In this document: one piece after another, positions 19,504 through 54,650 of the stretch
Position numbering within the stretch: position 1 is the first letter of the stretch
Layout: the number at the start of each line of letters is the position of its first letter
DNA from: Saprospiraceae bacterium
GTDB lineage: Bacteria; Bacteroidota; Bacteroidia; Chitinophagales; Saprospiraceae
DNA: 64,000 nt
Assembly (NCBI GenBank): GCA_022448955.1
Contig: JAKVCU010000008.1
Span: forward strand, 1-64,000
Direction of reading: 5' to 3'
The notes under the pieces: generated by a model
The model's input: the letters and a program-made list of their open reading frames with translations, nothing else
Database searches by the model: none
Told to the model about the DNA's origin: nothing
Made by a program: the position numbers and the translations under genes

Positions 19504-19576
19504 TAAGTAGTTTGCCCGAACCCGTGCCTGCCGGCAGACTGGAATCGGTACAATAAAATTTTGTCTAGGCACTTAC
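19504..19576 (+). repeat. Dispersed TAAGT/ACTTA element, copy A (short form)
   Basis: 73 bases from TAAGTAGTTTGCCCGAACCC to TTTTGTCTAGGCACTTAC. The core CTGCCGGCAG is a perfect palindrome. It aligns along its whole length with copy F read in reverse (74-75 bases). On the minus strand the element begins GTAAGTGCCTAGAC, and the stop codon TAA of the histidine kinase lies inside these first bases, so the element abuts or supplies the end of that gene. Confidence 0.7.
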
Positions 19577-20853
19577 TCGATTTCTGTAGCTGTCTTTAGA
19601 TATAATTTCACTTCTGTTCCAATTCCTTCTTGGCTATCCAAACGAATGCGCCAGCCATGCGCATCGCAAATATTTTTGACATAATACAGACCAAGACCGA
19701 AGCCTTTAACATCATGGCGATTACCGGTTGGCACTCTGTAAAACTTATCAAAAATACGGCTGATATATTCTGCCTGAATCCCCATTCCGTTGTCTTTAAT
19801 TGACAGTTCCAAATAGCCCTGATATTCATTTAGCTGCACCTCAATTCTAGGTTTATTTTTACAATATTTTATAGCATTGTCAAATAAGTTGTGTAATATA
19901 TTAGTGAGGTGCAATCGGTCAGCATTAATAGACCAGTTTTTTGGGGGAAGTTTTGCCTCCAATTCTCCACCTATTTTTTCTATCCTTATTTGAATACTGT
20001 TTAGAATTCCCTCTAAGACTTCCGTCAAATTCAACACTTCAGGCTTTAAACTAAAGCCGCCTTTCTCGATAGTTGCCAACTGAAGTACCTTTTCGACTTG
20101 TTTATTTAAACGCATATTTTGCTCCTTTATGATATTGGCATATTGAAATAGACGTTTGTCGGCCTGCACCTCTGGTGCTTGTAAAAAGACATCTGCTGAA
20201 ACACGAATGGTAGAAATTGGCGTTTTAAACTCATGCGTCATATTGTTGATAAAATCTTTCTGCATTTCAGAAAGTCTTTTCTGACGAAGTATAATGAACA
20301 TCGAATACATAAAAAAAAGAATGGTAACGATAACTAGTGCAGTAAATGTGATCGTAAGTTGCATCTTACCCAAAAGATGACCTGTTCGATTTGGAAACTT
20401 CACTCCAAAGTAATACGTAAATTCATCATATTTGGGTAAATTCCCTAGTTCTGCTTTATTTTTTTCTGCTTCAGAGGCTCCATAGAATCCACCATATACC
20501 ATTTCATCGGTCGTACAATCGTAGACGGAGTACTCAAATGCCTCATCCATTGCCAAGGCTTGTAACTCTCGACGGAGAAATTCTTTCAGTAAAGTCGGAT
20601 CGATTTCTGCCTCAATATTGACAATATAATAATTGGAGGTACGCTTTTTAATTACGTCCTTAACGGGCAAAGCACTGTCATTAGCCTCTGCCATTTTTTT
20701 TGCTACATTTAATAAAGCCAACCTTACTTTGCTATTAAACTCATCTTCATTAATATCCCAAGTGGAAATGACCCAATAAGATTGCATGCCAATAAGGCTG
20801 ATAATCGTTATGGCACCCAATAATACAATCCGTTTAATGATATTGCTATTCAT
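19573..20853 (-). CDS. Sensor histidine kinase
   Basis: 426 residues. Membrane helix at about 8-28, periplasmic sensor region (about 30-155), second helix (about 165-188), then HisKA with the phosphoacceptor His207 in INNMTHEFKTPISTIR, and a HATPase domain with the N box (LFDNAIKYCKNKP), G1 box (IKDNGMGIQ), F box (IFDKFYRVP) and G2 box (GFGLGLYYVKNIC). It should sense an envelope signal and phosphorylate the downstream OmpR-type regulator. The stop codon falls inside repeat copy A, so the last codons (ATEIE) could have been altered by insertion; the catalytic domain is complete. Confidence 0.92.
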   Translation of the reverse strand: MNSNIIKRIVLLGAITIISLIGMQSYWVISTWDINEDEFNSKVRLALLNVAKKMAEANDSALPVKDVIKKRTSNYYIVNIEAEIDPTLLKEFLRRELQALAMDEAFEYSVYDCTTDEMVYGGFYGASEAEKNKAELGNLPKYDEFTYYFGVKFPNRTGHLLGKMQLTITFTALVIVTILFFMYSMFIILRQKRLSEMQKDFINNMTHEFKTPISTIRVSADVFLQAPEVQADKRLFQYANIIKEQNMRLNKQVEKVLQLATIEKGGFSLKPEVLNLTEVLEGILNSIQIRIEKIGGELEAKLPPKNWSINADRLHLTNILHNLFDNAIKYCKNKPRIEVQLNEYQGYLELSIKDNGMGIQAEYISRIFDKFYRVPTGNRHDVKGFGLGLYYVKNICDAHGWRIRLDSQEGIGTEVKLYLKTATEIE

Positions 20854-21065
20854 AAATATTCTCCACTAAAATGATTCAAGTAATATTACAATATTCTAAT
20901 CGGTATACTTCATAGCTTAACAGCTCATTAACAAGATTTATAGCTCATTAACATGATTCGTATAACAAACGGGGGTAGATATAAAGTATTTCCATTTTGT
21001 TGTGATTTTTCATCCGTTCTACTTTTTTTATCCCAAAAAAAAAGCTAATAAGTATTTTTTATTTC

Positions 21066-21093
21066 TTGAACGGCGTTGAAATCTTTATTTTTG
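21066..21093 (+). promoter_or_regulatory. Putative promoter of the DUF4271-hemD pair
   Basis: TTG at 21066, a 17-base spacer, then TATTTTTG at 21086-21093. Both elements and the spacing match the Bacteroidota housekeeping consensus. The start codon is only about 23 bases downstream of the -7 element, implying a short leader. Confidence 0.55.
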
Positions 21094-21115
21094 TTCAAAT
21101 TTCAGTAAATAAACA

Positions 21116-22042
21116 ATGATTCTGAGCCTTAAAAAAATGCGCTGTACCATACGATTTGATATACTTATTTGGATGCTGTTAGCTGTGCAAAGTATCAATG
21201 CTCAAGAGAATAATCCATTTGATCTATTACCTAGGTTAAATACAGCAACGGAGACCTCAGATGAAGAAGGCGTCCAATTACAAGAAGAAAGCAAAAACCC
21301 ATTTGATATCGTCATACCTCCCCAAGCAGCGGTATCTGTAGTACCTAGAAATCCTAATATACGATTAGAAAAACCATCCGCAGCTTCCGATACTCGATCT
21401 AACAGAGGATTTATTCTAACTATTATCCTTAGTAGTTTAATATTGATTACAGTCATTACAACTGCCTTCAGAAGCTTTTTAAACAGAGCATATAAAGGTT
21501 TCTTGAATGGTAATATCATGTACCAACTATTCAGAGATAATAAAGCAGGAAAAAGATTACCCTACTTTTTTCTATATTTTCTCTTCTTCTTCAATTTGGC
21601 AGTATTTTTATTTTTAGTTGCTCAGCATCAGAAGATAAACTTAGCGTACAGCGATATACAATTGCAACTATATCTATTGGTTGGAATTGTGGTATTACTC
21701 TTATCTAAGCATTCTTTGTATAGCATATTAGCATTTTTTTTCCCATTTAATAAGGAGTTGAAAGCTTTTAGTTTTACCTCTATGATTTTTGGAATAATCT
21801 TAGGCTTTGTGATAGCTCCTATCAACTTACTACTTGCTTACGGATCAGAGGAGCTAGCGAGTGGAAGTACCTACTTTGGGTTTGGAATTATTGTCTTTTT
21901 TTATCTTTTTAAAAGTTTAAGAGGGATTTTAATTGGCTACAAATATTTAATTAGTAATACTTTTCACTTTTTGTTGTATATTTGCACCATCGAAATAGCC
22001 CCCGTTTTAATTATGGCAAAAATAGTATTAGGGCAATTATAA
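21116..22042 (+). CDS. DUF4271-family integral membrane protein
   Basis: 308 residues. A signal-like N-terminus (about 12-30) is followed by a low-complexity periplasmic stretch with a repeated NPFD motif (NNPFDLLP and KNPFDIVIP at about residues 32-68), then a cluster of six or more membrane helices (about 98-305). The helical part fits DUF4271, a Bacteroidota family of unknown function that commonly precedes the uroporphyrinogen-III synthase gene, as here (42 bases). It may be an envelope or haem-related membrane component; no catalytic motif is visible. Confidence 0.72.
   Translation: MILSLKKMRCTIRFDILIWMLLAVQSINAQENNPFDLLPRLNTATETSDEEGVQLQEESKNPFDIVIPPQAAVSVVPRNPNIRLEKPSAASDTRSNRGFILTIILSSLILITVITTAFRSFLNRAYKGFLNGNIMYQLFRDNKAGKRLPYFFLYFLFFFNLAVFLFLVAQHQKINLAYSDIQLQLYLLVGIVVLLLSKHSLYSILAFFFPFNKELKAFSFTSMIFGIILGFVIAPINLLLAYGSEELASGSTYFGFGIIVFFYLFKSLRGILIGYKYLISNTFHFLLYICTIEIAPVLIMAKIVLGQL
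21977..21984 (+). promoter_or_regulatory. Possible internal promoter for hemD
   Basis: TATATTTGCACC matches TAnnTTTG followed by C exactly. It lies inside the last codons of the DUF4271 gene, about 100 bases before hemD, so hemD may be transcribed independently. No convincing TTG is seen at the -33 distance. Confidence 0.35.
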
Positions 22043-22084
22043 TTCCTTCTTTTTGGAAAAACTCGATCAATAAATAAATTCTGA

Positions 22085-22864
22085 ATGGCAGCAAACGGTA
22101 AAGCGATAGAGTCGAAGCTGAAGAGAGTAAAATCAATATTGATTTCCCAACCGAAGCCAGAGCGCTCACCTTATTATGAATTACAGAAGAAATACGATTT
22201 GCAAATCGATTGGCGTCCTTTTATACATGTAGAAGGTTTAGACTCAAAAGAATTCCGCAAACAACGTATTCGTCCTGATGAGTTCTCTGCAATTATTCTT
22301 ACTAGTAAAAATGCTGTAGATCATTTCTTTCGCATCTGTGAAGAATTACGTATCAAAATGTCACAGGATACTAAGTATTTCTGCTTAACAGAAGCTATTG
22401 CAAATTATTTGCAGAAGTTTATAGTTTACAGAAAGAGAAAAGTTTTTGTAGGTAAACGTACAATCCAAGACTTATCAAACTATTTGAAAAAGCACAAAGC
22501 TAATGAGCGTTTTTTATTGCCATGTTCTAATCTTGGTAGTAAAGCCGTTTCTAAGTTTTTAACAGATAATGATTTCAACTGGCAAGATAGCCTCATGTAT
22601 CGTACTGTGAGTAGTGATTTGTCGGATTTAAGCGATGTTACTTATGATGTACTAGTATTTTTCAGCCCTCTTGGGATTAAGTCATTGTTTGAAAACTTTC
22701 CTGACTTCAAACAAAATGATACTCGGATGGCTGTTTTTGGTAATAGCACGAGCAAAGCAGTTGAAGATCGTGGATTAACGATCAACATTAAGGCTCCCGC
22801 ACCAGAAACTCCATCGATGACCATGGCACTTGAAAAATATTTACAAATATCTAACAAAGAGTAA
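22085..22864 (+). CDS. hemD: Uroporphyrinogen-III synthase
   Basis: 259 residues, the usual size. Two Rossmann-like halves are apparent: KRVKSILISQPKPERSPYYE and FSAIILTSKNAVDHFFRIC in the first, and FLLPCSNLGSKAVSKFL with DVLVFFSPLGIKSLFENFPD in the second, ending in the typical STSKAVEDRGLTINIKAPAPETPSM. The enzyme closes hydroxymethylbilane with D-ring inversion to give uroporphyrinogen III for haem, sirohaem or B12. It follows the DUF4271 gene closely. hemA is also in this window (61.5 kb), but the other haem genes are not. Confidence 0.85.
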   Translation: MAANGKAIESKLKRVKSILISQPKPERSPYYELQKKYDLQIDWRPFIHVEGLDSKEFRKQRIRPDEFSAIILTSKNAVDHFFRICEELRIKMSQDTKYFCLTEAIANYLQKFIVYRKRKVFVGKRTIQDLSNYLKKHKANERFLLPCSNLGSKAVSKFLTDNDFNWQDSLMYRTVSSDLSDLSDVTYDVLVFFSPLGIKSLFENFPDFKQNDTRMAVFGNSTSKAVEDRGLTINIKAPAPETPSMTMALEKYLQISNKE

Positions 22865-22941
22865 TTGATACTAAGTTATTGGGCTCAACCATATTAACTC
22901 ATCTTCTACGCCTAAATTTCTTAGCAAGAAATAATATGCAT

Positions 22942-22984
22942 GAATATTCCTAATTCTCAGCAAGCCTGAGAATTAGGAATATTC
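22942..22984. terminator. Perfect 19-bp hairpin between hemD and the Nudix gene
   Basis: GAATATTCCTAATTCTCAG pairs without mismatch with its complement around the five-base loop CAAGC. No T-run follows, so it may be a factor-assisted terminator, an mRNA-stabilising stem or a protein-binding palindrome. It lies 77 bases after hemD. Nothing else is seen in the 344-base gap 22865-23208. Confidence 0.7.
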
Positions 22985-23208
22985 TGCTATACAATTCTAC
23001 ATTTCACTACAAATAAGCTCCACCACTACAGGCTTTTATTGTTTTTTACTTAGCCACAAAGCTGATAATTTTAATCAATATTTCAGATTGCATGATCTTA
23101 ATTGATAGAGGTCTGCTATTAATCATGTAACCTTCTTATTATAACCTAAAATTAAAGCTAACTGCTACTCTTTTATCAACTGAACGCTCTATTTTTTGTT
23201 ATTTAAGT

Positions 23209-23835
23209 ATGCAAAACTTTATTCATAAAATTCAATCCGGTCTTCAACGACCGTTGCCTGGAATTGCTGCGCATAATAGGATGGCACATGTGGCTCGTCA
23301 AACCAAATTTGATGTACCCTCCAATGCTCGACAAGCGAGCGTAATTGCACTACTCTTCCCCAAGCTAAAGGAGTGGCATATCGTCTTAATCGAGAGAACT
23401 TCTAGCAACCCAAACGATCAACATAAGGGACAAATCAGCTTCCCTGGCGGCAGTCATGATAATAGTGATCCTGATTTTGAATTTACTGCTTTGCGCGAAG
23501 CAAAAGAGGAGATCGGTGTTAACCCCAATGATATACAAATACTTGGAGAACTCACTGACCTTTACATCCCTGTGAGTAACTTTAATGTCAAGCCTTTTGT
23601 AGGTTTTATGGACTATACCCCCTCTTTTATCCCACAAGAAAGCGAAGTAGCATCTATTTTGGAAGTTCCTTTTCAAACTTTTATGAGTCCGAATATCCGC
23701 CAAAAAACAAATATCAAAATCACTCCGCAAATTACTTTAAAAGATGTTCCCTTTTTCAACATTGATAATAAAATCCTGTGGGGAGCAACAGCAATGATGA
23801 TGAGTGAATTGATCGAAGTTATACAGTTAGTATAA
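23209..23835 (+). CDS. Nudix hydrolase, CoA-pyrophosphatase (NudL-like)
   Basis: 208 residues. The Nudix box reads GGSHDNSDPDFEFTALREAKEEIG, where the REaxEE core and the Gly-Gly-x-x-Asp spacing follow the CoA-diphosphatase (NudL/PCD1) branch. The preceding VIALLFPKLKEWHIVLIERT and HKGQISFPGG also match that branch. The expected reaction is cleavage of CoA or acyl-CoA pyrophosphate to 4'-phosphopantetheine and 3',5'-ADP in the cytoplasm. It precedes icmF, itself an acyl-CoA enzyme, but a repeat element and a candidate promoter separate them, so cotranscription is doubtful. Confidence 0.82.
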   Translation: MQNFIHKIQSGLQRPLPGIAAHNRMAHVARQTKFDVPSNARQASVIALLFPKLKEWHIVLIERTSSNPNDQHKGQISFPGGSHDNSDPDFEFTALREAKEEIGVNPNDIQILGELTDLYIPVSNFNVKPFVGFMDYTPSFIPQESEVASILEVPFQTFMSPNIRQKTNIKITPQITLKDVPFFNIDNKILWGATAMMMSELIEVIQLV

Positions 23836-23850
23836 CTAAGCGAAAAGTAG

Positions 23851-23858
23851 TATTTTTG
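23851..23858 (+). promoter_or_regulatory. Possible -7 element upstream of icmF
   Basis: TATTTTTGC is an exact TAnnTTTG match 16 bases after the Nudix stop codon and 115 bases before icmF. No good TTG is visible at -33. If used, the transcript leader would run through repeat copy B. Confidence 0.3.
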
Positions 23859-23877
23859 CAAAAATCCAAATAACCAC

Positions 23878-23942
23878 TAAGTGAAACCAATAGAAGTAGT
23901 CAACGCAAAAGCTGATACAGTAAATTTTGTCTAGACACTTAT
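23878..23942 (+). repeat. Dispersed TAAGT/ACTTA element, copy B (short, diverged)
   Basis: 65 bases from TAAGTGAAACC to AAATTTTGTCTAGACACTTAT. The right end is nearly identical to copies A and D (TTTTGTCTAGGCACTTAC). The middle GATACAGTAAA corresponds to GGTACAATAAA of copy A. It lies in the leader region between the Nudix gene and icmF, 30 bases before the icmF start. Confidence 0.6.
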
Positions 23943-23972
23943 TACTTAGCCTAACCAAATTATATACTTCTG

Positions 23973-27356: not shown

Positions 27357-27357
27357 C

Positions 27358-27378: not shown

Positions 27379-27451
27379 AATGGCCGACAAGAATCTGTGA
27401 ACAGCAAAAAATTAAAAGATCAATTCGCTATTTTTGACTCAAAAAGTAGCC

Positions 27452-37453: not shown

Positions 37454-37468
37454 CTCATTTTTGCTTTA

Positions 37469-37620
37469 AATAGTAAGGCTAGAACCTGTATACCTCTGGC
37501 TGAAATTGGCATAATTCCTAGCGTTCGTTTTGAAAACGAATTTACAGGTTTTTGGTCATCTAGCTTTTCAAGCAAACCATATGAAATATACACTCAATTT
37601 TGACTAGCCTAACTACTTAT
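37469..37620 (+). repeat. Dispersed TAAGT/ACTTA element, copy C (long form)
   Basis: About 152 bases. The left end AGTAAGGCTAGAACCTG is near-identical to the left end of copy E, as is the following CCTCTGGCTGAAAT. The right end CAATTTTGACTAGCCTAACTACTTAT matches an end of copy F. The core differs from D and E and contains the palindrome TTCGTTTTGAAAACGAA. The last bases run into the coxD start codon (TTATGGA, also found at the end of copy F), so the element lies between the cox structural genes and the coxD-E pair. Confidence 0.7.
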
Positions 37621-39676: not shown

Positions 39677-39677
39677 T

Positions 39678-42600
39678 CTACTGTTTTACCATTTTCTTTA
39701 TTATGGTCTGCCCATTTAGCCTAAGCGAGTAATAATAAATGCCTACTGGCCAATTGCCTACATTATCTAGAATCACCTGCGATCGCCCTTTCGGGAAATG
39801 ATTTGCTTGTGTCCAAACCACTCTACCTAAGTGATCATAAATACATAGCTCTGCCCAAGCTGCCTCTGGCAAATCAAATGGAAGCAAAGTGCTTTGACGG
39901 AATGGGTTAGGTTGATTTTGATATAGCTCAAAATTCGATGCCACATTATGGCGTTGTAATGTCATCAACTCAACGGGTAAAGTTTCATCCTGATTGTTGT
40001 AAGCTTCCTCTTTTGTGAGTCTGGAAGAAATAGAAACGGATTCAAGAGCCTCCTCAGCAGAGGTGGCAGATACTTCCAACGTAAACAATACTATCGTATC
40101 ATTGAACGCAATACTTTGGTTGTTTTTGTTCCAACTAATGGTCATCAAATCTTGGGAAAGATGCATCGTTGAAATATGCTCTTCTTGCAACAATCGGTAA
40201 TAAACCTGCTCTGGGATAGCCTTTTTGGAATCTATTGCTAATGAGAACTGAAATCCTTGAACCGCATTTAATTCATTACTTAGAAAGTGGAGTTCATAGT
40301 AACCTTCTCGAGTGCTTGTTTTTGCTCGTTTTATAATCGTGAATGCTTCATTGCTTCTATCATCTGCTTCTTCTGAAGCGAATCCTCCTGTGTAAGCATC
40401 CAAATTGACATCACCTACTTTGATGGCAACAAAATGGGCAGCAGATGCTTCGTCACTCAAAGCATCATAGTGCACCTGTTCAGGGAAAGTCTCATACCAT
40501 GGATCTGTACTTTGTGGGAATTCATAATTGGCATCAATAAATCGCCAACTTTTATTATTAGGAAACTCACTGATAATGCTAAGTACCATTTTGCGGATCA
40601 ATACCAAATCCAAGATAGAGATACTTCCCGAATTATCGACATCCGCTGCTATCATTTTGTAAGGGGAATCTAATGGAGTGACCCCTAAAATATGCTTGGT
40701 TACTAATATCAAATCAAAAGTCGAAATACCATTTTTAGGACCTTCATTGAAGTATGGATCAATTGTATATGCCTCGTCTAAAAGGACTTCTTCAAAAGTA
40801 AAATCACCAACAGCATTAGTTTCTGAAATCATCTCCTGTCCTCCAGTTAATTCCAATTGCACCCCTGGCAAGGGATGACCATCCATCGTTTCTATTGTGC
40901 CAGTAATTGCTGTAGTCAAAACTGGATTACAAAAATCACTAGGGTCCTCAATGACAAACTGTGCAAAACTTTGTGCAAAATTAGGTCCCCCCAAAGTGCC
41001 ATTCAATTGAATGCTGTAAGGATTAAATGCATGATCCCAGACATGAATTTGAACGTTAATCTCAGTCGTATCTTCACAAGTGAATATGAGCTTATCTTGA
41101 CTTAAATTCACAGGACTTCCAATACGATTAATCGCATAATTGACTTCCTCTCCACAATCAAATATATCGTTGATTAATAAGTCATTAGCAAATAATTCTA
41201 GACTTGCCAAATCCAAGTTTCCATCATTATCAATATCTATTTCTTCATTTACTGGACTTAGTTCAAAAACAAGACCATTGCTTGCAAGGGGTTCATCAAC
41301 TGTACAATCAATGATTTCTATTGGAATCAGAATACTTGTTTCATTATCAAATCCATCATTAACTACCAATCGCAAATGATGAATGCCTATGGGGAAGTAA
41401 TCTGCAATTTCTATTTTTCCATTACTGATAGATTGAATAGCATTTTGAGTAATATCCTGAACCATATCATTTTCTAGCAATAGTGATGCTTGAATTTCAT
41501 TTGGCGTACAGCCTTCCAAAATATCTACTCCTATTTCAATCAACGCAGCACAAGGATCATCGCTTGTACATACTGCTTCAGGTATCTCAAATTGCAACTC
41601 AGGTGCTTCATTATCGTAAATTTTTATTACCTGCATATATTGCCAATAACCGACAGAAGGTACTGCTCTCCAATAGCCCTCTGGGTTGGTAGTTCCATCA
41701 CATTGATAGCCTTTTTCACCCCCATATGGTATGGTATTATATACATCCTCATCTGTATCGATATATGCCATATCCGGTAAGCGGTTAAGCCAAACATCTG
41801 CTTCGCCCGCTTCATCATTACAATTTTCGTCGCGTGAAACTTCTAATGGATCAGACACCCCATCATATTCACACCAATTGATAATGTTATAAGTCCGGAA
41901 TAATTGGAAGCGCTCATTACCAGATGCTGGAAACTCCACATCTTCATAATTTACTGCAATTAAATCACAAGCATAGATGTAAATCTCTGGTTCAAAATCC
42001 ATAGCTTGATCGCAATTGATACTGATATCTCTTGGAAACTTAATTGCATAATTATTTTCAATCGTCAATTGTATTTCTTGAAAACAAGGATTGGTAGATA
42101 TATTACCATAAGCATCTACTGCTTGAAACTGACGAGTAACCGTTCCTGCACCACAATCATCTAAATTGATAATAGGTGCAAACTCTTGCCAGTCTGCATT
42201 ACAATTATCTATCGTTTCAGGCGTTCCAAATAAATGGCGTAAATCTGTTAAGCTATTCAAGTCTGTGCCTTGCGGCAAATCATTACAGCTCATTTCCGCT
42301 GCTACAGGCGGAATACAATTCGGATGGAGCTGATCTTGTACAAAAATGCTCAACTGACAATTGTTGATATTACCAACGGCATCTATAGCTTTTACCTCAA
42401 CTATAACCACTTCATTTACATCACAGCAATTGAGTGGAATGATATTTCCCCAATCATTAGCCTGCGTACAACCGGAAGCTAATCGTCGTACCTCAATATG
42501 GCTAAAACTACAGTTGTCAATACTTCCATCATTAAGCTGATCTGCTTCGATCATTACTTCCCCTTCTCCTCCGATTGAGATCGTAATATCGTCGCTACAT

Positions 42601-45035
42601 ATTGCTGTAGGTGCAACTTTATCCTCAACAATAAATGGGCATTCGAGCGTGCTACTATTGCCACAAGCATCCGAAACCGTGTATCGAATACGATGACTTC
42701 CTAGTGGGATATTTCCTACTTCTCGTGAAATAGCACCTTCTGGTACTACTGCTAGAACCTCTTGTTCAATCAACGTATCGATTACCAATCCCCATTGGTT
42801 ATACACCAATACTTCTATATCTGTAATCACTTCGCTATATATTGAGGTAGAAGAGCAATTATCTGTAACCACAGGCAATGGCAATTCGAAAGTAGCCGTA
42901 CAATCAAAAGGTGTTGTGGAGAAACTCAGGGTATCTGTTACTTCATCAAAATTGTCATCTACTGCCAAACATTCAAGTTCAGGAACAGTAAAATCTCCTA
43001 CTCTTATTTGTTGGTGATGAAGCAAACTAGTTGTTGGATCACACCAATCAAATATACTCCAAACTCTTAAGATTTTATATCCGCTTTCGCAAATAGGTAC
43101 CGCAGGGTTATCAACATAAGTTGCTGCTAGATTACATATATCTGTTGATAAAGTATAAACATCTAAAGCCGTCTGCACTAAGGGGTAACCAGTCAAATCG
43201 GGATGAGGATTTCCATTATTATCCCATTGGTTAAGCTCATCACATTCGATGACCGTCGATAAAGAAGGCAGTATAACATCGTCTACCGTTGGTGGTCTGA
43301 ATAATATATCCTGTGTACAGGACACCCTATTATTAGATTGATCAGTAGCCGTAAATTCTCTTTTTAAAACAGTAATTCCACATTCCCCATTGAGTAATAG
43401 TTGATCTTCAAAACTCAATAATGGTGTACTCATACAATTGTCTGATATGCTTGGTTGCCCAGTAAACGCTAATAAATTTTGATTATCGAGCATCGTATCC
43501 AAATCAGAACAAATTAATTCTCTTTTTAGTATTCCTTCAATGCTCTCTACACTCTCCACCTTACCACCTTTAGCACCGTATACCGCCCAGCGGTATAGCC
43601 CTGTTTGTTCTGCGAAGTAAGAAGTAGTTAATAAGGAATAATTTTGATCGGTTTTTAGGGCAATGCTTATCGTAAATAAAGTATCTATTTCACTGAAGTA
43701 TCCTCTCCCGGCTTCTCTTTCCTTAGCTACAGCAATAATGTGCTGACAAGCACCACTTGAAAGGTCTGAAACACCTTCGTACAAAAATGCAGCACCATGT
43801 CGGAAGCTTCCGCTAAATTCAAAAGTATATACATCATCTTGATCTACTTCAAATGATCGAAGATCATAATAATGCATATCTCCTTCATCCGCTACATCAT
43901 TTTGGAAACAAGTGGAGTAGGAAGTATTAAGCTGTTCATCATCGAGACTTAATGTATCTACTAAAAATTGGATGCTCACAGGAACGTCTGCAGTATTGCG
44001 AGTATCTAAACATTCAATTTCAGGCGCACGATAATCTACAGGAGTGAGATGTCCAAGTCCAGAATAACCTCCAGCTTCAGATTCAATTAATACATTTAAT
44101 GTTTGATTGATGTGTTCATGAGTAATTGTATTTCCAACAGGAATTCCACTTTCATCAAAAACAGATACGAAGAAATCATCCAAGCATGGATAATCCCCAA
44201 CCAGCATCAAATCAGGTGTAATTTCAATTTCACAGCTATTATTCATAGCTAATGTAATATGATCTACCACAGCAACATAAGGCACATCTTGAACTTCTAC
44301 TTCTTCTATAATAGAAGTCCAACAACCAGGGTTAGTTGAATCATTTAACCCTGCTTCGCCCGCATCAAAATCATATTCTATAGTATAAATACCTTCTCCT
44401 AAATCATAAGGATTTAGAGTATTTGTTAATTCATCATTCAAGTAAAAAGTACCAGTTCCATCCGCCCCTTCGACATCCGCTTGTAAGTCAATAGGGGCAC
44501 TTGTAATACAAATAGCATCATCTAAACCTTCAAAACTAGGATTCGGATAGTAGCAAGTCGCTGAAATTTGTAGTTGTTCTCCAAATTCATTTTCAATCGT
44601 AAGATCAAATCCAAGTGCATCAATGTGAATGACTGGTAATTGATAAGTTCCAGGCATAGCATCTAATTCAGGAATCGTTTTACCGGCAGTGATGATAATA
44701 CTTGCTTCGGGGGGGGCAGGACTATTTATATCATGAAGTCCTGTTACAGCAATGATCGTCCACATCTGTCCGGTATCTGCTTCTACAGTAATTGTAGTTT
44801 CAAACTGTCCATCCGTTAGGTTACTTGAATTGTTCAAGCAGGAGCATTTGTTCGGAGAATCTGGTGTAGTTCCTAAATAAATAATTGGTGTTGGTGTAGT
44901 TGTCGTATCATTTGTTAAAACCGTCAAAGCATTTCCACTATTGCCCCAAAGGAACAATCCCAAGCAAATCCCAAGCCATCTGGCTAATCGGAATAGAGGG
45001 CGTCCACTTTTTGAAGTTTTAACTTTTATAAACAT
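39678..45035 (-). CDS. Giant secreted protein with dockerin-like region and T9SS C-terminal sorting domain
   Basis: 1785 residues. The N-terminus (about 1-37) is a signal peptide after a short basic run. A long Cys- and Asp-rich body (about 55-1270) has repeating beta-sandwich-like blocks with motifs such as VTDNCSS, DACGN and AVDAYGNIST, resembling HYR/SprB-type adhesin repeats. A carboxypeptidase-regulatory-like fold comes next (TIETMDGHPLPGVQLELTG), then a dockerin-like segment with paired Asp-rich loops (DVDNSGSISILDLVLIRK), a cohesin-like stretch, and finally the T9SS sorting domain (NFELYQNQPNPFRQST to the terminal KKMVKQ). It should be exported through the type IX system and fixed to the cell surface. 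Single gene, convergent with coxE. Confidence 0.87.
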   Translation of the reverse strand: MFIKVKTSKSGRPLFRLARWLGICLGLFLWGNSGNALTVLTNDTTTTPTPIIYLGTTPDSPNKCSCLNNSSNLTDGQFETTITVEADTGQMWTIIAVTGLHDINSPAPPEASIIITAGKTIPELDAMPGTYQLPVIHIDALGFDLTIENEFGEQLQISATCYYPNPSFEGLDDAICITSAPIDLQADVEGADGTGTFYLNDELTNTLNPYDLGEGIYTIEYDFDAGEAGLNDSTNPGCWTSIIEEVEVQDVPYVAVVDHITLAMNNSCEIEITPDLMLVGDYPCLDDFFVSVFDESGIPVGNTITHEHINQTLNVLIESEAGGYSGLGHLTPVDYRAPEIECLDTRNTADVPVSIQFLVDTLSLDDEQLNTSYSTCFQNDVADEGDMHYYDLRSFEVDQDDVYTFEFSGSFRHGAAFLYEGVSDLSSGACQHIIAVAKEREAGRGYFSEIDTLFTISIALKTDQNYSLLTTSYFAEQTGLYRWAVYGAKGGKVESVESIEGILKRELICSDLDTMLDNQNLLAFTGQPSISDNCMSTPLLSFEDQLLLNGECGITVLKREFTATDQSNNRVSCTQDILFRPPTVDDVILPSLSTVIECDELNQWDNNGNPHPDLTGYPLVQTALDVYTLSTDICNLAATYVDNPAVPICESGYKILRVWSIFDWCDPTTSLLHHQQIRVGDFTVPELECLAVDDNFDEVTDTLSFSTTPFDCTATFELPLPVVTDNCSSTSIYSEVITDIEVLVYNQWGLVIDTLIEQEVLAVVPEGAISREVGNIPLGSHRIRYTVSDACGNSSTLECPFIVEDKVAPTAICSDDITISIGGEGEVMIEADQLNDGSIDNCSFSHIEVRRLASGCTQANDWGNIIPLNCCDVNEVVIVEVKAIDAVGNINNCQLSIFVQDQLHPNCIPPVAAEMSCNDLPQGTDLNSLTDLRHLFGTPETIDNCNADWQEFAPIINLDDCGAGTVTRQFQAVDAYGNISTNPCFQEIQLTIENNYAIKFPRDISINCDQAMDFEPEIYIYACDLIAVNYEDVEFPASGNERFQLFRTYNIINWCEYDGVSDPLEVSRDENCNDEAGEADVWLNRLPDMAYIDTDEDVYNTIPYGGEKGYQCDGTTNPEGYWRAVPSVGYWQYMQVIKIYDNEAPELQFEIPEAVCTSDDPCAALIEIGVDILEGCTPNEIQASLLLENDMVQDITQNAIQSISNGKIEIADYFPIGIHHLRLVVNDGFDNETSILIPIEIIDCTVDEPLASNGLVFELSPVNEEIDIDNDGNLDLASLELFANDLLINDIFDCGEEVNYAINRIGSPVNLSQDKLIFTCEDTTEINVQIHVWDHAFNPYSIQLNGTLGGPNFAQSFAQFVIEDPSDFCNPVLTTAITGTIETMDGHPLPGVQLELTGGQEMISETNAVGDFTFEEVLLDEAYTIDPYFNEGPKNGISTFDLILVTKHILGVTPLDSPYKMIAADVDNSGSISILDLVLIRKMVLSIISEFPNNKSWRFIDANYEFPQSTDPWYETFPEQVHYDALSDEASAAHFVAIKVGDVNLDAYTGGFASEEADDRSNEAFTIIKRAKTSTREGYYELHFLSNELNAVQGFQFSLAIDSKKAIPEQVYYRLLQEEHISTMHLSQDLMTISWNKNNQSIAFNDTIVLFTLEVSATSAEEALESVSISSRLTKEEAYNNQDETLPVELMTLQRHNVASNFELYQNQPNPFRQSTLLPFDLPEAAWAELCIYDHLGRVVWTQANHFPKGRSQVILDNVGNWPVGIYYYSLRLNGQTIIKKMVKQ

Positions 45036-45277: not shown

Positions 45278-45402
45278 TAAGTAGTTAGGCAGACAGGTTC
45301 TAGCATCAGCTCAAAAATCATACGTAACTTTACTATCGTCAGTTTCTTATGATTTTCGAGCTAACCATTTTATTGTACCAGCAATTTTGTCTAGGCACTT
45401 AC
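45278..45402 (+). repeat. Dispersed TAAGT/ACTTA element, copy D (long form)
   Basis: 125 bases from TAAGTAGTTAGGCAGACAGG to TTTTGTCTAGGCACTTAC. The core CTCAAAAATCATACGTAACT is followed by an imperfect inverse copy (AGTTTCTTATGATTTTCGAG), giving a hairpin of about 21 bp with 17 matched positions. The core is nearly identical to copy E. Relative to E the segment GGCTAGAACCTG is inverted here (CAGGTTCTAGC). It lies 152 bases upstream of the haloperoxidase gene. Confidence 0.75.
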
Positions 45403-46886: not shown

Positions 46887-46892
46887 AAATAA

Positions 46893-46924
46893 AAGCCTCC
46901 TAACAACTCAATGTTAGGAGGCTT
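46893..46924. terminator. Bidirectional terminator between haloperoxidase and pirin
   Basis: AAGCCTCCTAACA pairs perfectly over 13 bp with TGTTAGGAGGCTT around a six-base loop. On the minus strand it is followed by a T-rich run; on the plus strand it lies 6 bases after the haloperoxidase stop. Confidence 0.85.
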
Positions 46925-46967
46925 AACTATTGCTCTGTAGATATTTAATATCTATTGAAATCTTGTA

Positions 46968-47675
46968 TTAATTCATGGGTACATCAATAACTAAGAAGTT
47001 AGTATTTTCTGCCGCTTTGATATTTACTTTATCTGTATCCCAAACTCCAACAGCATCTCTTTTATCAAATACTTCTCCATCCACTTCTACTTTGCCATCT
47101 AATACGAAGATGTAAGCACCATTGCCATTTTTATGGATTTCATAGCTCACTGTCTTACCAGCTTCAAATTTTCCTAAAGAGAAATAGGCATCTTGATTAA
47201 TCCAAATCGCTTCTTCATGCTCTGGCGAAACCACGAGCTGCAATTTATTTTCTCTATCTGCTGGTTCGAATGTTTTTTGCGCATAACGTGGTTTAATATT
47301 TTTTTCTTTCGGGAAAACCCAAATCTGAAGAAACTTCACAGCATCTTTCCTAGAATGGTTATATTCTGAATGCACGACTCCTGTTCCTGCAGACATGATT
47401 TGTACATCATTCAATTTGATAACTGTTTTGTTACCCATATTGTCTTGATGCTCCAAATCACCTTCTAAAGGAATCGAAATTATTTCCATATTATCATGTG
47501 GGTGTGCCCCAAATCCACGACCGGCAGCTACGCTATCATCGTTTAGAACTCGAAGCAAACCAAAATTCATCTTATTTGGATTATAATAGTTAGCAAAACT
47601 GAAAGAGTGAAAAGACTCTAACCACCCATGATTTGCATGACCTCTTGTATCTGATTTATGAACAACCTTTTTCAT
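46968..47675 (-). CDS. Pirin-family cupin protein
   Basis: 235 residues. The N-terminal cupin has the metal-binding set His58 and His60 (GAHPHDNMEI) with His102 and Glu104 (GTGVVHSEYN), all four ligands present, and the family start DTRGHANHGWLESFHSFSFA. Bacterial pirins include quercetin 2,3-dioxygenase (YhaK/YhhW) and redox-linked regulators; the physiological role is often unknown. The second cupin (about 135-235) is degenerate. It converges with the haloperoxidase gene. Repeat copy E starts about 31 bases upstream of its ATG and so lies in its promoter region. Confidence 0.9.
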   Translation of the reverse strand: MKKVVHKSDTRGHANHGWLESFHSFSFANYYNPNKMNFGLLRVLNDDSVAAGRGFGAHPHDNMEIISIPLEGDLEHQDNMGNKTVIKLNDVQIMSAGTGVVHSEYNHSRKDAVKFLQIWVFPKEKNIKPRYAQKTFEPADRENKLQLVVSPEHEEAIWINQDAYFSLGKFEAGKTVSYEIHKNGNGAYIFVLDGKVEVDGEVFDKRDAVGVWDTDKVNIKAAENTNFLVIDVPMN

Positions 47676-47705
47676 CTTTTATCGTTTTTGGTATAAATTA
47701 TAAGT

Positions 47706-47861
47706 TAAGTAGTTAGGCTAGAACCTGTCAGCCTCTGGCTGAAATGGTATAATAAATTCTTTTAGTCAGCTCAAAAATCATGCGTAACTTTTCTCTCGTC
47801 AGTTACTTATGATTTTCGAATGAACAATTTTTTATACAAGCAATTTTATCTAGTCGCTTAC
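47706..47861 (+). repeat. Dispersed TAAGT/ACTTA element, copy E (longest form)
   Basis: 156 bases from TAAGTAGTTAGGCTAGAACC to AATTTTATCTAGTCGCTTAC. The left part CTGTCAGCCTCTGGCTGAAA has internal pairing potential (CAGCC/GGCTG). The core CTCAAAAATCATGCGTAACT pairs imperfectly with AGTTACTTATGATTTTCGAA, forming a hairpin of about 20 bp. It is in the same orientation as copy D, 2.4 kb away, and lies just upstream of the leftward pirin gene. Confidence 0.75.
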
Positions 47862-48344
47862 TTTATACTTTAGTTATTAACGACTACAAATTTAAAGTCA
47901 TTTTGTGCAGGTCGACATGTCATTTTTAAGGTAAGGTTTGTCGTTTTAATAGATAAAACGTCTGGTAAATGTATCTACAGAAGACATAAAAAACAAAAAA
48001 ATGGACATTTGGAAGTAATTAGGCCGAATACGTATTGATATTTCCATAATTTATATGATATATTTGTAGTAATTGTTTTTTCAAACAAATACCCACCACA
48101 GTGAATATCATAAGCAGACGCTCAATGCTTATGGATAATAATCCTAAAAAATTGTTTCTAAAATTTATAATACAGACAATTTTATCTAGGCAATTAAGTA
48201 ATTGTTAAGGGAGTTAAAAAAATGATAATCTTCCTTAATGAAGAATTTATTCAAATGTATTTATCGTTTAGGATTTGTAATTTTATAGTATTGGAAGTCA
48301 CCTTTGCTGTAAAGTTTATCTAAATCCCTTGAAAATCCAAAACC
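47862..48344. other. 483-base gap upstream of the LysM glucosaminidase
   Basis: AT-rich; no gene is supported. TATATTTG at 48059-48066 matches the -7 consensus but is far from any start. A decayed repeat copy (48111-48197) lies within it. The glucosaminidase promoter presumably sits in the last 150 bases. Confidence 0.4.
48111..48197 (+). repeat. Decayed copy of the dispersed element, copy G
   Basis: The right end CAATTTTATCTAGGCAATTAAG closely matches the end of copy E (CAATTTTATCTAGTCGCTTAC). The left part TAAGCAGACGCTCAATGC is only loosely similar. It is called as a degenerate copy on the strength of the right 20 bases and its position 250 bases from copy E. Confidence 0.4.
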
Positions 48345-49802: not shown

Positions 49803-49950
49803 ACTTTACTTATAGATTATTTGATGGGACGCGTAATTTTGACAAATAGACAAGTTTGCCACTAACAACCTCTAACTATTAAGTAGGCTGGTAATAATTT
49901 TTTCCCGAAAAAGTGCCACTTTTGTGTTTTATAAAGCAGTAAAACGCAAT

Positions 49951-50706
49951 ATGATTATGGCTCGTATATTTTTTACACTCGTGTTGATCTTTTCTTTTTG
50001 TTATTTGGATGCCCAGAGTTATGCTGTGGGAATCAAAGGTGGCCTTACTGTTGGATTTCAACAATGGGATAACTTCTCGCAAAGAGATCCATTATATCGT
50101 TATCATGGTGTTGTTTCTATTGAAACAGCCGATGAGGAAGAGCCTTTTTCCATCTTTGCACAGTTAGGCTATCATGTGAAAGGAAGTGCGATTCGTACCA
50201 ATCCAACTACTGTAAGAAATAGTGCAGGTACTCTCTTTGATATACCTGCACGCGAAACACCCTTTGAATTTAACAATCTATCATTAACCCTTGGTGGAAA
50301 ACAAAAATTTGACCTTGGTAATGGTTCAAGATATTATTATCTCCTTGGGGTAAGAGGGGATTATACTTTAAATACTAATTTGGGAGACTATCAAATTGAA
50401 GATACTGGCAATGGTTTCTTCTTTTTTAATGCCTCCTATCCCGTAGACGAATTTGTCCAGAAATGGAACTATGGCGTCACTGTCGGTGGAGGTTTAGAAT
50501 TTGATATTTCAGAATTTGTAGGTACAACGCTAGAATTTACAGTCAATCCAGATTTTTCTAGACAGTACCTTTCTCCTGAAATTCAAAATGTGATTGTTCC
50601 TTGGTCTCCAAATAATACAACGATTAGAGAACGCCAGATCAGAAATATCACCATCGAAGTATCACTTGGATTTCGATTCTTAAGAAAGATTGAGTATATA
50701 GATTAA
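49951..50706 (+). CDS. Outer-membrane beta-barrel protein (PorT-like size class)
   Basis: About 251 residues from the ATG of [16 protein letters not shown], a signal peptide ending YLDAQ; a GTG nine codons earlier gives a poorer signal. The mature part starts [19 protein letters not shown], the usual opening of small 8-10 strand barrels of the outer-membrane beta-barrel family common in Bacteroidota, and ends with an aromatic strand ([11 protein letters not shown]). No specific function is identifiable. lptB begins 11 bases after its stop, so the two are likely cotranscribed, fitting an outer-membrane role. Confidence 0.75.
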
Positions 50707-50717
50707 AATTAAAGTTT

Positions 50718-51470
50718 ATGATTCTGAGAAGTGAGCAATTGGTAAAATTCTACGGACGTAGAAAAGTAGTTAAGGGTGTTTCTTTGAATGTGCATCAAGG
50801 AGAAATTGTTGGACTACTAGGTCCAAATGGAGCAGGAAAAACGACCACCTTCTACATGACAGTAGGCTTTATTCAACCTAATGAAGGTCGAGTATACTTA
50901 AATGATGATGATATTACTAATTTGCCGATGTACAAACGTGCACAACGAGGTATCGGCTATCTTCCACAAGAACCTTCTGTTTTTAGGAAATTAACAGTAG
51001 AAGATAATATCAAGGCCGTATTAGAAATGACTGCTTTAAAAAAAGCAGAGCAGAAAGATAAATTAGAAAGCTTGCTAGATGAATTTGGTTTGCACAAAGT
51101 ACGTAAATCGCGTGGTGATACACTTTCAGGTGGAGAGCGCCGTCGTACAGAAATTGCTCGTGCTTTAGCTACTGATCCAAAATTTATCCTTTTAGATGAG
51201 CCTTTCGCAGGAATTGACCCTATTGCAGTGGAAGATATCCAATATATCGTCGCTAAGTTAAAAACCAAAAATATTGGTATTCTCATAACGGATCATAATG
51301 TCCAGGAAACCCTTTCGATCACAGATCGCGCTTATTTGATGTTCGAGGGAAATATCTTAAAAGCTGGCACAGCAGAAGAATTGGCAGCTGACGAAATGGT
51401 TCGAAAAGTGTATCTTGGTAAGAATTTTGAACTTCGCAGAAAAGTAATTGACATCGATGCAGAACGTTAA
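50718..51470 (+). CDS. lptB: LPS export ABC transporter ATP-binding protein
   Basis: 250 residues. Walker [14 protein letters not shown] (about 35-47), Q-loop [16 protein letters not shown], signature [15 protein letters not shown], Walker [20 protein letters not shown] and the H-loop TDHNVQETL. The FRKLTVEDN and [11 protein letters not shown] segments are characteristic of LptB rather than other ABC ATPases. It powers lipopolysaccharide extraction from the inner membrane with LptF/LptG, which are not in the window. It follows an outer-membrane barrel gene by 11 bases and precedes two small lipoprotein genes on the same strand. Confidence 0.95.
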
Positions 51471-51489
51471 GTTATCTGACCTGAATAAA

Positions 51490-51756
51490 ATGCTAGCTCT
51501 TAGTCTGTTTATTGGTTTAATCTTCCCAGCCTCTTGCTCAGGTGATGAAGAGACTAAGTTCCGCTTGACTTCTCGCGAACGTATTCAAGTAGATACTCTT
51601 TACAATAGGCAAATAGATAGTCTTCGAGCTGACTTGGATTCTTTTTGTACCCAAAGTCATGACCAGTTACTTAGTTTAGCCGTAGATTCCATTCTGCAAG
51701 AACGTAAAAAGACTGAGATGGAGCTGCGAAAGCGTATTCCTAAACCGAACAATTGA
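51490..51756 (+). CDS. Small lipoprotein-like protein 1 downstream of lptB
   Basis: 88 residues if started at the ATG opening MLALSLFIGLIFPASC, a signal with candidate lipid Cys16 (PASC is an imperfect lipobox). An earlier in-frame ATG at 51457 overlaps lptB and gives a longer leader. The mature part is short, helical and charged. Its segment SLAVDSILQERKK resembles NIIVDSILLEEARQK in the next gene, suggesting the two are tandem paralogues. It follows lptB by 19 bases; the following gene overlaps its stop. No family is recognised. An envelope role is inferred from position and signal only. Confidence 0.6.
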   Translation: MLALSLFIGLIFPASCSGDEETKFRLTSRERIQVDTLYNRQIDSLRADLDSFCTQSHDQLLSLAVDSILQERKKTEMELRKRIPKPNN

Positions 51757-52094
51757 TTTTTGTGATTCGATATATTTACTTAATAAGCATCCTCCTATTC
51801 TTGGGAGCTTGTGGCGCTGATGAAAGAGACGAAGCTGCTATCAAAGCTGCTATTCAAGAAACATTAAAAAAGAAAATAGCAAATTTTAAAAAGGTTAGAA
51901 GACAACGTTGCCTCAATGATATTTATGATGAAGCAAATATCATTGTCGATTCTATACTATTGGAGGAAGCCCGACAAAAAAGAGATACTATCGGCAAACC
52001 TGCCCGCCCCATCAAGCCTGAAAAGCCTGAGATCAAGACGATTTTAGATACCTTGCCTATTGCGCCTTTGTTGGAAAAAGATAGTTTGGAATAA
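51753..52094 (+). CDS. Small lipoprotein-like protein 2, likely paralogue of the preceding gene
   Basis: 113 residues. There is no ATG near the 5' end; the likely start is TTG at 51753, overlapping the previous TGA stop (TTGA), or GTG at 51762. The N-terminus is a lipoprotein signal ending LLFLGAC, a good lipobox with Cys at residue 20. The mature protein is helical and charged, shares the VDSILxE motif and a Cys-x-x-D pattern with the preceding protein, and ends in a Pro/Lys-rich tail. Five bases separate its stop from the convergent pth gene. Function unknown. Confidence 0.6.
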   Translation: MIFVIRYIYLISILLFLGACGADERDEAAIKAAIQETLKKKIANFKKVRRQRCLNDIYDEANIIVDSILLEEARQKRDTIGKPARPIKPEKPEIKTILDTLPIAPLLEKDSLE

Positions 52095-52099
52095 CAAAA

Positions 52100-52717
52100 T
52101 CACTTCTTATTAAACTGACTCATCGTATGCTGCAAACCAATTGTTCCAAACGCCTTCGCCGTATCCCCAGCATATTTAACCAATTCTGAAAGCTGATCTT
52201 GTTCTTCGCCATTCCATTCACCTAGAACGAAGTTAGCTTGTTGACCTTTGTGATAATCATTGCCAATGCCAAAGCGTAGACGAGCGTAGTTATTACCACC
52301 ACACATACGATCGATATCTTTCAAACCATTATGACCACCATCACTTCCTTTTCCACGCAGACGTTGTTTGCCGAAAGGCAAATTCAAGTCGTCCAAAATG
52401 ACAAGCAGATTAGATTTTTCGATCTTATGCTTTTGTAACCAATAACGGACAGATTTACCACTTAAATTCATGTAAGTAGAAGGCTTCAGCAATATAAAGG
52501 TGCGCCCTTTATGCTTAAAATCAGCCACAGAGCCCAAGTTATCCACCTTCCAAGATGCATCAAACTCTTTCGCCAAATGATCAACCACATCAAAACCAAC
52601 ATTATGACGTGTATTGTCATACTTCGCCCCAATATTGCCCAAGCCTACTATCAGATATTTCATCGGATCAGGTTCAATTTCTGTTTTTTGAAATATTTTC
52701 TTTAACCACTCAAACAC
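52100..52717 (-). CDS. pth: Peptidyl-tRNA hydrolase
   Basis: 205 residues from GTG. The core begins MKYLIVGLGNIGAKYDNTRH, with the catalytic His38 and Asn28, and continues KPSTYMNLSGKSV, LVILDDLNLPFGKQRLRGKG and GGHNGLKDI, all standard. The enzyme frees tRNA from peptidyl-tRNA lost from ribosomes. An 18-residue N-terminal extension (FEWLKKIFQKTEIEPDP) precedes the usual start; extensions like this occur in other Bacteroidota. The GTG shares a base with the dapD stop (TAGTG), suggesting coupling. If the extension is not translated, the ATG at 52663 would serve. Confidence 0.93.
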   Translation of the reverse strand: MFEWLKKIFQKTEIEPDPMKYLIVGLGNIGAKYDNTRHNVGFDVVDHLAKEFDASWKVDNLGSVADFKHKGRTFILLKPSTYMNLSGKSVRYWLQKHKIEKSNLLVILDDLNLPFGKQRLRGKGSDGGHNGLKDIDRMCGGNNYARLRFGIGNDYHKGQQANFVLGEWNGEEQDQLSELVKYAGDTAKAFGTIGLQHTMSQFNKK

Positions 52718-53535
52718 TATACCGCTACATTAAATTCCCTCAAAGTAGAATTCAAGGATACTTTTTTATCAGTACTCTCCTTACGCTTTCCGATAATCAA
52801 AGCACAAGCCACTTGATAATCACCTGCTGGGAATGACTTCGTATAAGTACCAGGAATCACTACCGAACGAGCAGGCACTCTTCCTTTATAGGTTACTGGT
52901 TCTGGGCCCGTTACATCAATAATACGTGTTGATTGTGTCAACACCACATTTGCACCAAGCACCGCTTCTTTTTCGATATGTACCCCTTCTACAACAATAC
53001 AACGAGAGCCAATAAAGCAATCATCTTCGATAATCGTTGGCGTCGCTTGAGGTGGCTCTAATACCCCTCCGATCCCAACACCTCCACTCAAATGCACATT
53101 GCGGCCAATCTGCGCACACGACCCTACAGTTGCCCAGGTATCTACCATCGTACCACTACCTACCCATGCGCCGATGTTTACATAACTAGGCATCATCACC
53201 ACCCCTTTTTCAAGGAATGCACCATATCGAGCAATGGCATGTGGCACTACACGTACGCCTTGCGCTGCGTATTCTTTCTTTAAAGGAATTTTGTCATGAA
53301 ACTCAAAAGGACCTACTTCAATCGTTTCCATTTGAGAGATTGGGAAAAATAACAGTACTGCCTTTTTAATCCACTCATGTACTGTCCAAGTCCCATCTGC
53401 ATTAGGCTCTGCCACACGGTATTCGCCTTTATCCAACTTTTCCATTACCTCTCTAACCGCTGCTTGTGTTGCCTCCTCCTTCAATAGCTCACGATTATCG
53501 TAAGCACTTTCAATAATTTGTTTTGTATTACTCAT
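52717..53535 (-). CDS. dapD: Tetrahydrodipicolinate N-succinyltransferase
   Basis: 272 residues, standard. Left-handed beta-helix hexapeptide repeats occupy about residues 105-220 (VVMMPSYVNIGAWVGSGTM, VDTWATVGSCAQIG, HLSGGVGIGGVLEP), after a helical N-terminal domain. It converts tetrahydrodipicolinate and succinyl-CoA to N-succinyl-2-amino-6-oxopimelate in lysine and meso-diaminopimelate synthesis, so this organism uses the succinylase branch. It is followed by pth through a one-base overlap; the unrelated functions suggest a positional rather than metabolic operon. Confidence 0.95.
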   Translation of the reverse strand: MSNTKQIIESAYDNRELLKEEATQAAVREVMEKLDKGEYRVAEPNADGTWTVHEWIKKAVLLFFPISQMETIEVGPFEFHDKIPLKKEYAAQGVRVVPHAIARYGAFLEKGVVMMPSYVNIGAWVGSGTMVDTWATVGSCAQIGRNVHLSGGVGIGGVLEPPQATPTIIEDDCFIGSRCIVVEGVHIEKEAVLGANVVLTQSTRIIDVTGPEPVTYKGRVPARSVVIPGTYTKSFPAGDYQVACALIIGKRKESTDKKVSLNSTLREFNVAV

Positions 53536-53604
53536 ATCTATTTTGGTCTTACTCTTTAATGCCGCAAAAATATAGAAGTTGAACGAAGTTTCAAACTCTG
53601 CCGT

Positions 53605-54555
53605 TTATGGAAGTTCTAAACTTCGATCGTAGGCTAATTTGGCTGCAGCCAAATCTTCTAACGCATGTCCTACCGACTTAAATAGCGTAATCTCGGAATC
53701 AGTTTGACGAGCAAGCACTTTTTTTCGCGATAAGCCAAATAAATCGTCCTTAATGTCTTCCATCTGAATCAGCCCTTTTTCCAATGGGATGGCCAAGTCG
53801 CCACTTTCTTTAGTAGCCATTTCTTTTACATCGGCGTATAGGATTGCTCTTTTAATCACTTCATCATCTGCTTCGCGCATATTTGGCTTAAATGAACCTA
53901 CTAAATCTATGTGCTGTCCTGTTCTTAGATTTTCACCAAAAATTAAGGGCTCTTCACTCAGGGTAGCAACTGAGATGATATCTGCTTGTGTAGTCGCTTT
54001 CGCTAAATCGGCTGTCGCCAAAACATTTATACCTTCTAATTGCATTGAGGCAGCTATTTTTTCTGCTTTCGCAAAATTTCGGCCCCAAATCACGACCTCT
54101 TTTATTGGTCGAACACTACAATGTGCATGAATCAATCTCGGTGCTAAAGCACCTGTTCCAACCATTAGTAAACGCTCACTATTTTCTCTGGAAAGAAATT
54201 TACTCGCTAATGCGGAAGCTGCTGCGGTACGAATACCGGTCAAAGTTTTTGCTTCCACCTGCGCCAAAGGCGTACCTTTCAACTTATCAAATAAAAAATA
54301 TAGTCCTTGAATCGCAGGCAAATCAAACTGACTATTCTCCGGCGAAACGACAATCAATTTTACCCCTAAAAAACCTTCTGCTTCCCAAGCCGGCATCAAC
54401 AACAAAGTAGAGTCCACTCCCATCGGCGGATTCTTAAAATCATGATGATGACGATTGGGTACCGTATAATCTCCACAAAACGCCTCCTTCAAGCACGCCA
54501 CCACACTCGGATAATCCAATAGCTTTTCTAGTTGTTCCGCACTTACATTTTTCAT
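53605..54555 (-). CDS. Ornithine cyclodeaminase / mu-crystallin family protein
   Basis: 316 residues from the ATG opening MKNVSAEQLEKLLDYPSVV. A further 12 upstream codons come from repeat copy F and are not used. The NAD-binding Rossmann part shows LMVGTGALAPRLIHAH (about 120-135) and the family's IRTAAASALASKFL. Members include ornithine cyclodeaminase, pyrroline-2-carboxylate reductase and alanine dehydrogenase-like imine reductases; the substrate cannot be fixed from sequence, though proline/hydroxyproline metabolism is a common role. It is divergent from the MepA-like gene, with copy F in the shared promoter region. Confidence 0.82.
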   Translation of the reverse strand: MKNVSAEQLEKLLDYPSVVACLKEAFCGDYTVPNRHHHDFKNPPMGVDSTLLLMPAWEAEGFLGVKLIVVSPENSQFDLPAIQGLYFLFDKLKGTPLAQVEAKTLTGIRTAAASALASKFLSRENSERLLMVGTGALAPRLIHAHCSVRPIKEVVIWGRNFAKAEKIAASMQLEGINVLATADLAKATTQADIISVATLSEEPLIFGENLRTGQHIDLVGSFKPNMREADDEVIKRAILYADVKEMATKESGDLAIPLEKGLIQMEDIKDDLFGLSRKKVLARQTDSEITLFKSVGHALEDLAAAKLAYDRSLELP

Positions 54556-54575
54556 CTTTATTTGATATTTTGATG

Positions 54576-54650
54576 GTAAGCGGCTAGTCAAAATTGCTTG
54601 TATAATAAATTCCTGCCGGCCGGCAAGCAGGTTCTAGCCTAACTACTTAT
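54576..54650 (-). repeat. Dispersed TAAGT/ACTTA element, copy F (short form, reverse orientation)
   Basis: 75 bases. Read on the minus strand it starts TAAGTAGTTAGGCTAGAACC (identical to copy E), then a GCCGGCCGGC palindrome, then AATTTATTATACAAGCAATT and TTTTGACTAGCCGCTTAC. It aligns end to end with copy A. It occupies most of the divergent spacer between the ornithine cyclodeaminase-like and MepA-like genes, so it could influence either promoter. Confidence 0.75.

Follow-up and report, generated by a model that had tools for sequence, protein, structure and literature searches.

The RUP element of Streptococcus pneumoniae is a 107-bp sequence with terminal inverted repeats and a TA target, present in 108 intergenic copies; the IS630 transposase of IS630-Spn1 has been proposed to mobilise it (PMC2229807). 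The same account describes the Correia/NEMIS elements of Neisseria, which occur in forms of about 107 and 155 bp that differ by an internal segment (PMC2229807). MITECca01 of Cardinium, a miniature inverted-repeat transposable element (MITE), has 169 copies of about 240 bp and is derived from an IS982-family element (PMC9769881). Here, we describe a family of short elements found in the first 64,000 nucleotides of contig JAKVCU010000008.1 (the window) of the Saprospiraceae bacterium assembly GCA_022448955.1. The family is present in about 250 copies with common ends, is spread mostly between genes, has duplicated the dinucleotide TA at a nested insertion site and is absent from two syntenic sites in a genome of the same genus.

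The family resembles RUP in its terminal inverted repeats, intergenic placement and TA target, and RUP is a precedent for a MITE served by IS630; compared by description, the present family differs in its higher copy number, its modular interior of about 50–200 nt and a partner that is matched at the tips only. Correia/NEMIS elements likewise have TA at their ends, a stem-loop structure and discrete size forms, but carry 24-bp terminal repeats, the likeness again being drawn from their description (PMC2229807). With MITECca01, the family shares a lineage-specific burst and a mostly intergenic location, and it differs in size and in the IS982 origin of the Cardinium element (PMC9769881). The sequences described here form a new family within a known class of parasite, a TA-inserting MITE that is probably served by IS630, and among the matches listed in a literature search, titles and abstract openings contained nothing on this family.

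An initial annotation of the window listed seven copies with common ends and suggested a MITE- or REP-like element. All seven copies are real and were placed correctly to within 1–2 nt. With up to three mismatches allowed, the right-end motif is found six times in this stretch where 0.04 would be expected, a count that none of 100 shuffles attained; the left-end motif is found three times against 0.00 expected. A family confined to the window would have argued against mobility. A scan of the whole host genome (6,416,077 bases in 230 contigs) gave 242 ends at up to three mismatches, with one match for the reversed control; at up to one mismatch there were 203 young-form and 249 degenerate-form ends, and neither reversed control gave a match. 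The resulting estimate of about 250 copies favours mobility. From the fetched loci we extracted 157 non-redundant ends, 97 of which had a recognised second (right) end. The alignment A1 comprised 69 copies of 138–200 nt; 100 copies entered the flank tests (98 with sufficiently long flanks), 98 the empty-site test, and 86 the gene-context and excision tests.

The transposable unit is AG...CT, flanked by duplicated TA dinucleotides, with ends of the form (TA)AG(C/T).... TA was found at the start of 97 of 100 copies, where the search motif itself favours it, and at the end of 90. One terminus carries the repeat (TA)AGYGSCTAGWCAAAATT, and the opposite terminus either (TA)AGTAGTTAGGCTAG or (TA)AGTAGTTTGCCCGAA. 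The young consensus runs from TAAGCGGCTAGTCAAAATTGCTTGTATAATAAAATT through a central hairpin to AATTTTATTGTACCAATT and then CTAGCCTAACTACTTA or GGGCAAACTACTTA, with optional small palindromes such as CAGCCATAGGCAGACAGG or CCTGCCGGCAGG before the final end; in the longer forms, the interior is a long hairpin plus optional small palindromic modules. Unit lengths range from 49 to 200 nt and cluster at 72–75, 138, 177–180 and 198 nt, and four spans of 287–355 nt each contain more than one element. These units are short and numerous, have terminal inverted repeats (the ends are paired in two folded 138-nt copies), and are too small to hold a transposase gene of their own. Together with the TA duplication, the nested insertion and the element-free syntenic sites described below, these features bear out the MITE suggestion. 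We consider it very likely that this is a non-autonomous MITE family, composed of an AG...CT unit between duplicated TA dinucleotides, for which we infer a transposase of the Tc1/mariner–IS630 type acting in trans. Such an enzyme, encoded by another element, would bind the MITE ends, cut out the unit and join it to TA sites, and copies landing within genes would mostly be lost through selection.

Nested copy L023:1267-1444 sits within an older copy of the family. When its flanks are joined with one TA retained, they align to the family copies L010, L110 and L115, which have no such insertion, with no gap at the junction (1-nt gaps occur elsewhere), and therefore the target duplication at this site is exactly TA. 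The 81 rows that span a junction in the empty-site test consist mostly of this copy and of tandem copies matching themselves. The initial annotation had also proposed a search for empty orthologous sites in relatives, and two were found in the same-genus genome G001. G001 reads TTTTATGGAACATTC at site C, the place where the host element lies between TTTA and TGGAACATTC; its syntenic stretch for site E is likewise free of the element. The converse prospect, that relatives would carry the same sequence at every orthologous site, was not borne out, as G001 (89% complete) has no match to the end motif.

The family also inserts next to its own kind. Fifteen of 200 ends, at 11 distinct junctions, adjoin another element end and share one TA with it (element X, described next, takes part in two of the junctions), compared to 1 of 919 other TA sites no more than 44 nt away. 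The TA itself is commonly preceded by T (49 of 98 copies) and followed by A (56 of 98). A preference for palindromic targets, suspected from two copies, was discarded: complementarity at 8 or more of 12 flank positions was seen in 2 of 98 copies, and shuffles gave 1.3. Element X is a second short element of about 100 nt (TAAGCAGGTACTCATTAATAAC...GGTTACCTGCTTA), seen for example at L147 and L151, which are contig starts of the host genome. It occurs at six places with no or one mismatch, all near contig starts, and several of these adjoin the MITE; allowing three mismatches adds four further places, with three matches in the reversed control.

We looked for a transposase gene bounded by the same ends. 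The host genome has six DDE_3 matches, five of them above the cut-off, and no locus has full MITE ends of its own. Four proteins from these loci match the NCBIfam IS630 model, two above the cut-off and two partial matches below it, and HTH_33 gave no match. Ends were placed for the IS630 copies at L061–L065, with L066 left out. Those of L061 are TAAGTAC and TAAGTGG, equidistant from a shared inner repeat, and L064 (TAAGTAGGTTTACC) and L065 (TAAGCAGGTTTACT) have TAAG-starting ends at the point where their similarity stops; the TAAG-starting ends of L062 (TAAGCAGGTAACC) and L063 (TAAGTAATTT) were placed by eye only. A separate MITE copy adjoins the insertion sequence end at L065. A search of 80 family genomes with the L064 protein gave matches in six, including the host. 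One family relative carries a full IS630 element (L171; 1,165 nt, or 1,129 nt with an alternative left end) with paired TAAGTAGGTTTACC... ends alike at 23 of 26 positions, and L174 from another genome has paired TAAG-starting ends alike at 21 of 26; three of the five L064-like loci from other genomes had no paired TAAG-starting ends. A pattern built from one insertion sequence end was dropped as a partner lead, as it gave 2 matches against 18 in the reversed control. At L061:1404-3386, an IS630 element with approximate limits (tips placed by eye) is interrupted by an open reading frame (ORF) at 2453-3223, which may encode an IS5-type transposase, judging from its resemblance. IS630 elements such as ISY100 insert at TA and duplicate it (PMC2170065), and judging from these ends the TAAG tip beside TA would seem to be a local IS630 habit that the MITE has in common. 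Because the MITE end beyond the tip matches none of the IS630 copies well, the transposase partner is one that we infer.

Four genomes besides the host had end matches in a scan of 396 genomes of the order (host included). The host had 249 and G200, a member of another family of the order, had 148 with none in its reversed control; three genomes had one match each, which we treated as chance, and eight others gave a single reversed-control match each. A set of 39 other genomes that included G001 yielded one match with two mismatches (G036), also treated as chance, in a 3-kb locus without an ORF of 80 amino acids. At 13 listed places in G200, there are two main kinds of element of about 105 nt, TAAGTGCCTAGACAAAATTAATG...TTGGCACTTA and TAAGTAACTAGACAAAATTAAACA...GTCTAGGTACTTA, and one pair again shares a TA. 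When compared by BLAST with the 69 host copies in A1, an example of the first kind matched over its first 31 nt at most, and an example of the second kind only over its first 20 and last 14 nt. The most likely reason for the same ends around different interiors is a transposase specificity that the two genomes have in common or that was transferred. No matches were found in plasmids, nor to the young form in viral contigs, where two matches to TAAGTRCCTAGACAAAATT without a second end were read as chance. Among the matches listed, a contig of a 'Kordia sp.' metagenome-assembled genome (NZ_JAKVBC010000004.1) was rejected as independent spread: it is 99.96% identical to host contig C31 over 17,835 nt (L156, L157), holds the same copies and looks mis-binned. 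This contig diverges from C31 at a junction within an element copy, which reflects either an inversion or an assembly path.

Folding was examined for single copies and across the alignment. Folded as DNA, two 138-nt copies each give a single long hairpin (z −6.07 and −8.70, with none of 200 shuffles as stable), and a 198-nt copy folded as RNA gave z −7.49. The fold of the 73-nt copy F as DNA is unremarkable (z −0.36; 72 of 200 shuffles as stable). RNAalifold returned only four pairs on the modular alignment, and the 49 pairs of one copy's structure were counted in its place. Across the 69 aligned copies (67 distinct), these pairs are standard in 90.7% of cells compared to 86.5% after shuffling, with the pair set biased towards its copy of origin, and both sides have changed in 183 cells, where shuffles gave 82 and none of 500 came as high, a test that the relatedness of the copies inflates. 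Shifting the partner by 1–3 columns lowered the paired cells to 31–46%. The inner arms come in matched sets (GTCAGCTC/GAGCTGAC, GTCCCTTC/GAAGGGAC, GTCCCTAC/GTAGGGAC and GTTCATTC/GAACGAAC), copies that mix unmatched arms exist as well, and L042, judged by eye, has its central segment in reversed orientation. We read the covarying arms as maintenance of the palindrome together with exchange between copies, with selection on an RNA as a possible alternative.

This covariation would be expected of a regulatory RNA, terminator or attenuator family conserved in place for its function, and here the initial annotation's refuting case is partly realised: the hairpin covaries, but G001 lacks the element at sites C and E, and a conserved regulatory RNA is therefore unlikely. 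We give this explanation very little weight, given also that G001 has no motif match, that Rfam found nothing in the window at gathering score, and that the copies show no clear orientation preference relative to neighbouring genes (26 versus 15 of 41 same-direction contexts, p 0.12). The REP-like half of the initial suggestion fared no better. Short palindromic repeats that are mostly intergenic, numerous and able to form hairpins could be REP/REPIN (repetitive extragenic palindrome) sequences moved by RAYT, a Y1 transposase, yet the anatomy is that of an element of about 50–200 nt with terminal inverted repeats, whose TAAG tips are like those of the IS630 copies in the same genome, and with a duplicated TA target. 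To our knowledge, RAYT transposition leaves no such duplication, and we regard this origin as highly improbable; no search for RAYT genes was made. Somewhat more can be said for a TA-specific enzyme other than the DDE_3/IS630 type as the transposase that moves the MITE, since G200 has its 148 ends and no DDE_3 match. Nevertheless, the host IS630 copies have the same TAAG tip and TA flank, an end of one copy of element X, TAAGCAGGTAACCATATTAAA, resembles that of the IS630 copy L062, and G200 is incomplete, so we consider a different transposase unlikely.

Several observations weigh against an IS630-served MITE. The nested L023 insertion is the only base-exact site among 98 joined sites; at site C the flank alignment to G001 is gap-free on its right side only, and at site E it has 13- and 4-nt gaps beside the junction. 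No autonomous element with full MITE ends was found, and the likeness to IS630 ends is secure only at the tip, the rest matching no IS630 copy well. Moreover, 19 of 40 small-contig stretches read as N, where a collapsed multi-copy element could lie, and the G200 assembly without DDE_3 is 91% complete in 670 contigs. A broader possibility, which we put forward tentatively and think somewhat doubtful, is that the end of about 19 nt is a portable unit of transposase specificity across bacterial families. MITEs would be rebuilt repeatedly around this transferred end code, with different interiors (hairpin or A+T-rich) captured and amplified separately in the host genome and G200; the palindrome would be upheld by transposition or repair, and new copies would preferentially target the ends of older ones, giving rise to tandem arrays that share a TA. 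The family adds a large TA-inserting MITE family to those described, and is moderately interesting for ends common to different bacterial families, covarying arms and element-to-element tandem insertion. With ends alike and interiors different in genomes of two families, it offers a case for studying the step from insertion sequence to MITE.

Copies of the MITE family in the window. Refined limits include the TA.
Copy	Position	Strand	Length	Ends and remarks
A	19504..19575	-	72 nt	ends TAAGTAGTTTGCCCGAAC / TAAGTGCCTAGACAAAATT
B	23878..23941	-		left end decayed; other end TAAGTGTCTAGACAAAATT
C	37467..37619	-	153 nt	element-free in same-genus G001
D	45278..45401	-	124 nt	
E	47706..47860	-	155 nt	absent from syntenic stretch of G001
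G	48111..48196	-		old, decayed (left end too)
F	54577..54649	+	73 nt	short form, young subfamily; end TAAGCGGCTAGTCAAAATT

The claim that copies lie only between genes is correct for most of the family and fails in detail. After excision with one TA kept, 3 of 86 sites (L031, L052 and window copy F) fall in an open frame of at least 120 codons that extends 20 codons or more to each side, whereas random TA sites in those flanks do so in 1110 of 1720 cases. Insertion into genes is thus rare among the surviving copies, yet not absent. An earlier count of 0 of 86 copies within an ORF was dropped as uninformative on this point, because the stop codons within the elements would interrupt any ORF that they entered. 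Within the window, a histidine kinase ORF at 19573-20853(-) takes its TAA stop (19573-19575) from the tip of copy A, and the last A of copy C forms the first letter of the ATG (37619) of an AAA-ATPase ORF. Copy F is at or in the 5' end of an ornithine cyclodeaminase frame, because a 366-codon open frame runs across the site once the copy is excised. Across the family, an open frame of at least 100 codons ends on the terminal TAA of the element in 6 of 86 copies.

The statement that the window holds no transposase agrees with the Pfam scan of 14 of its 74 mechanical ORFs of at least 80 amino acids, none of which matched a transposase family. A 1785-amino-acid ORF at 39681-45035 has no Pfam match at 1e-5. 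Of the young-form matches listed, 36 of 100 lie no more than 230 nt from the end of a contig, and near-identical copies explain a good share of the assembly breaks in the host genome.

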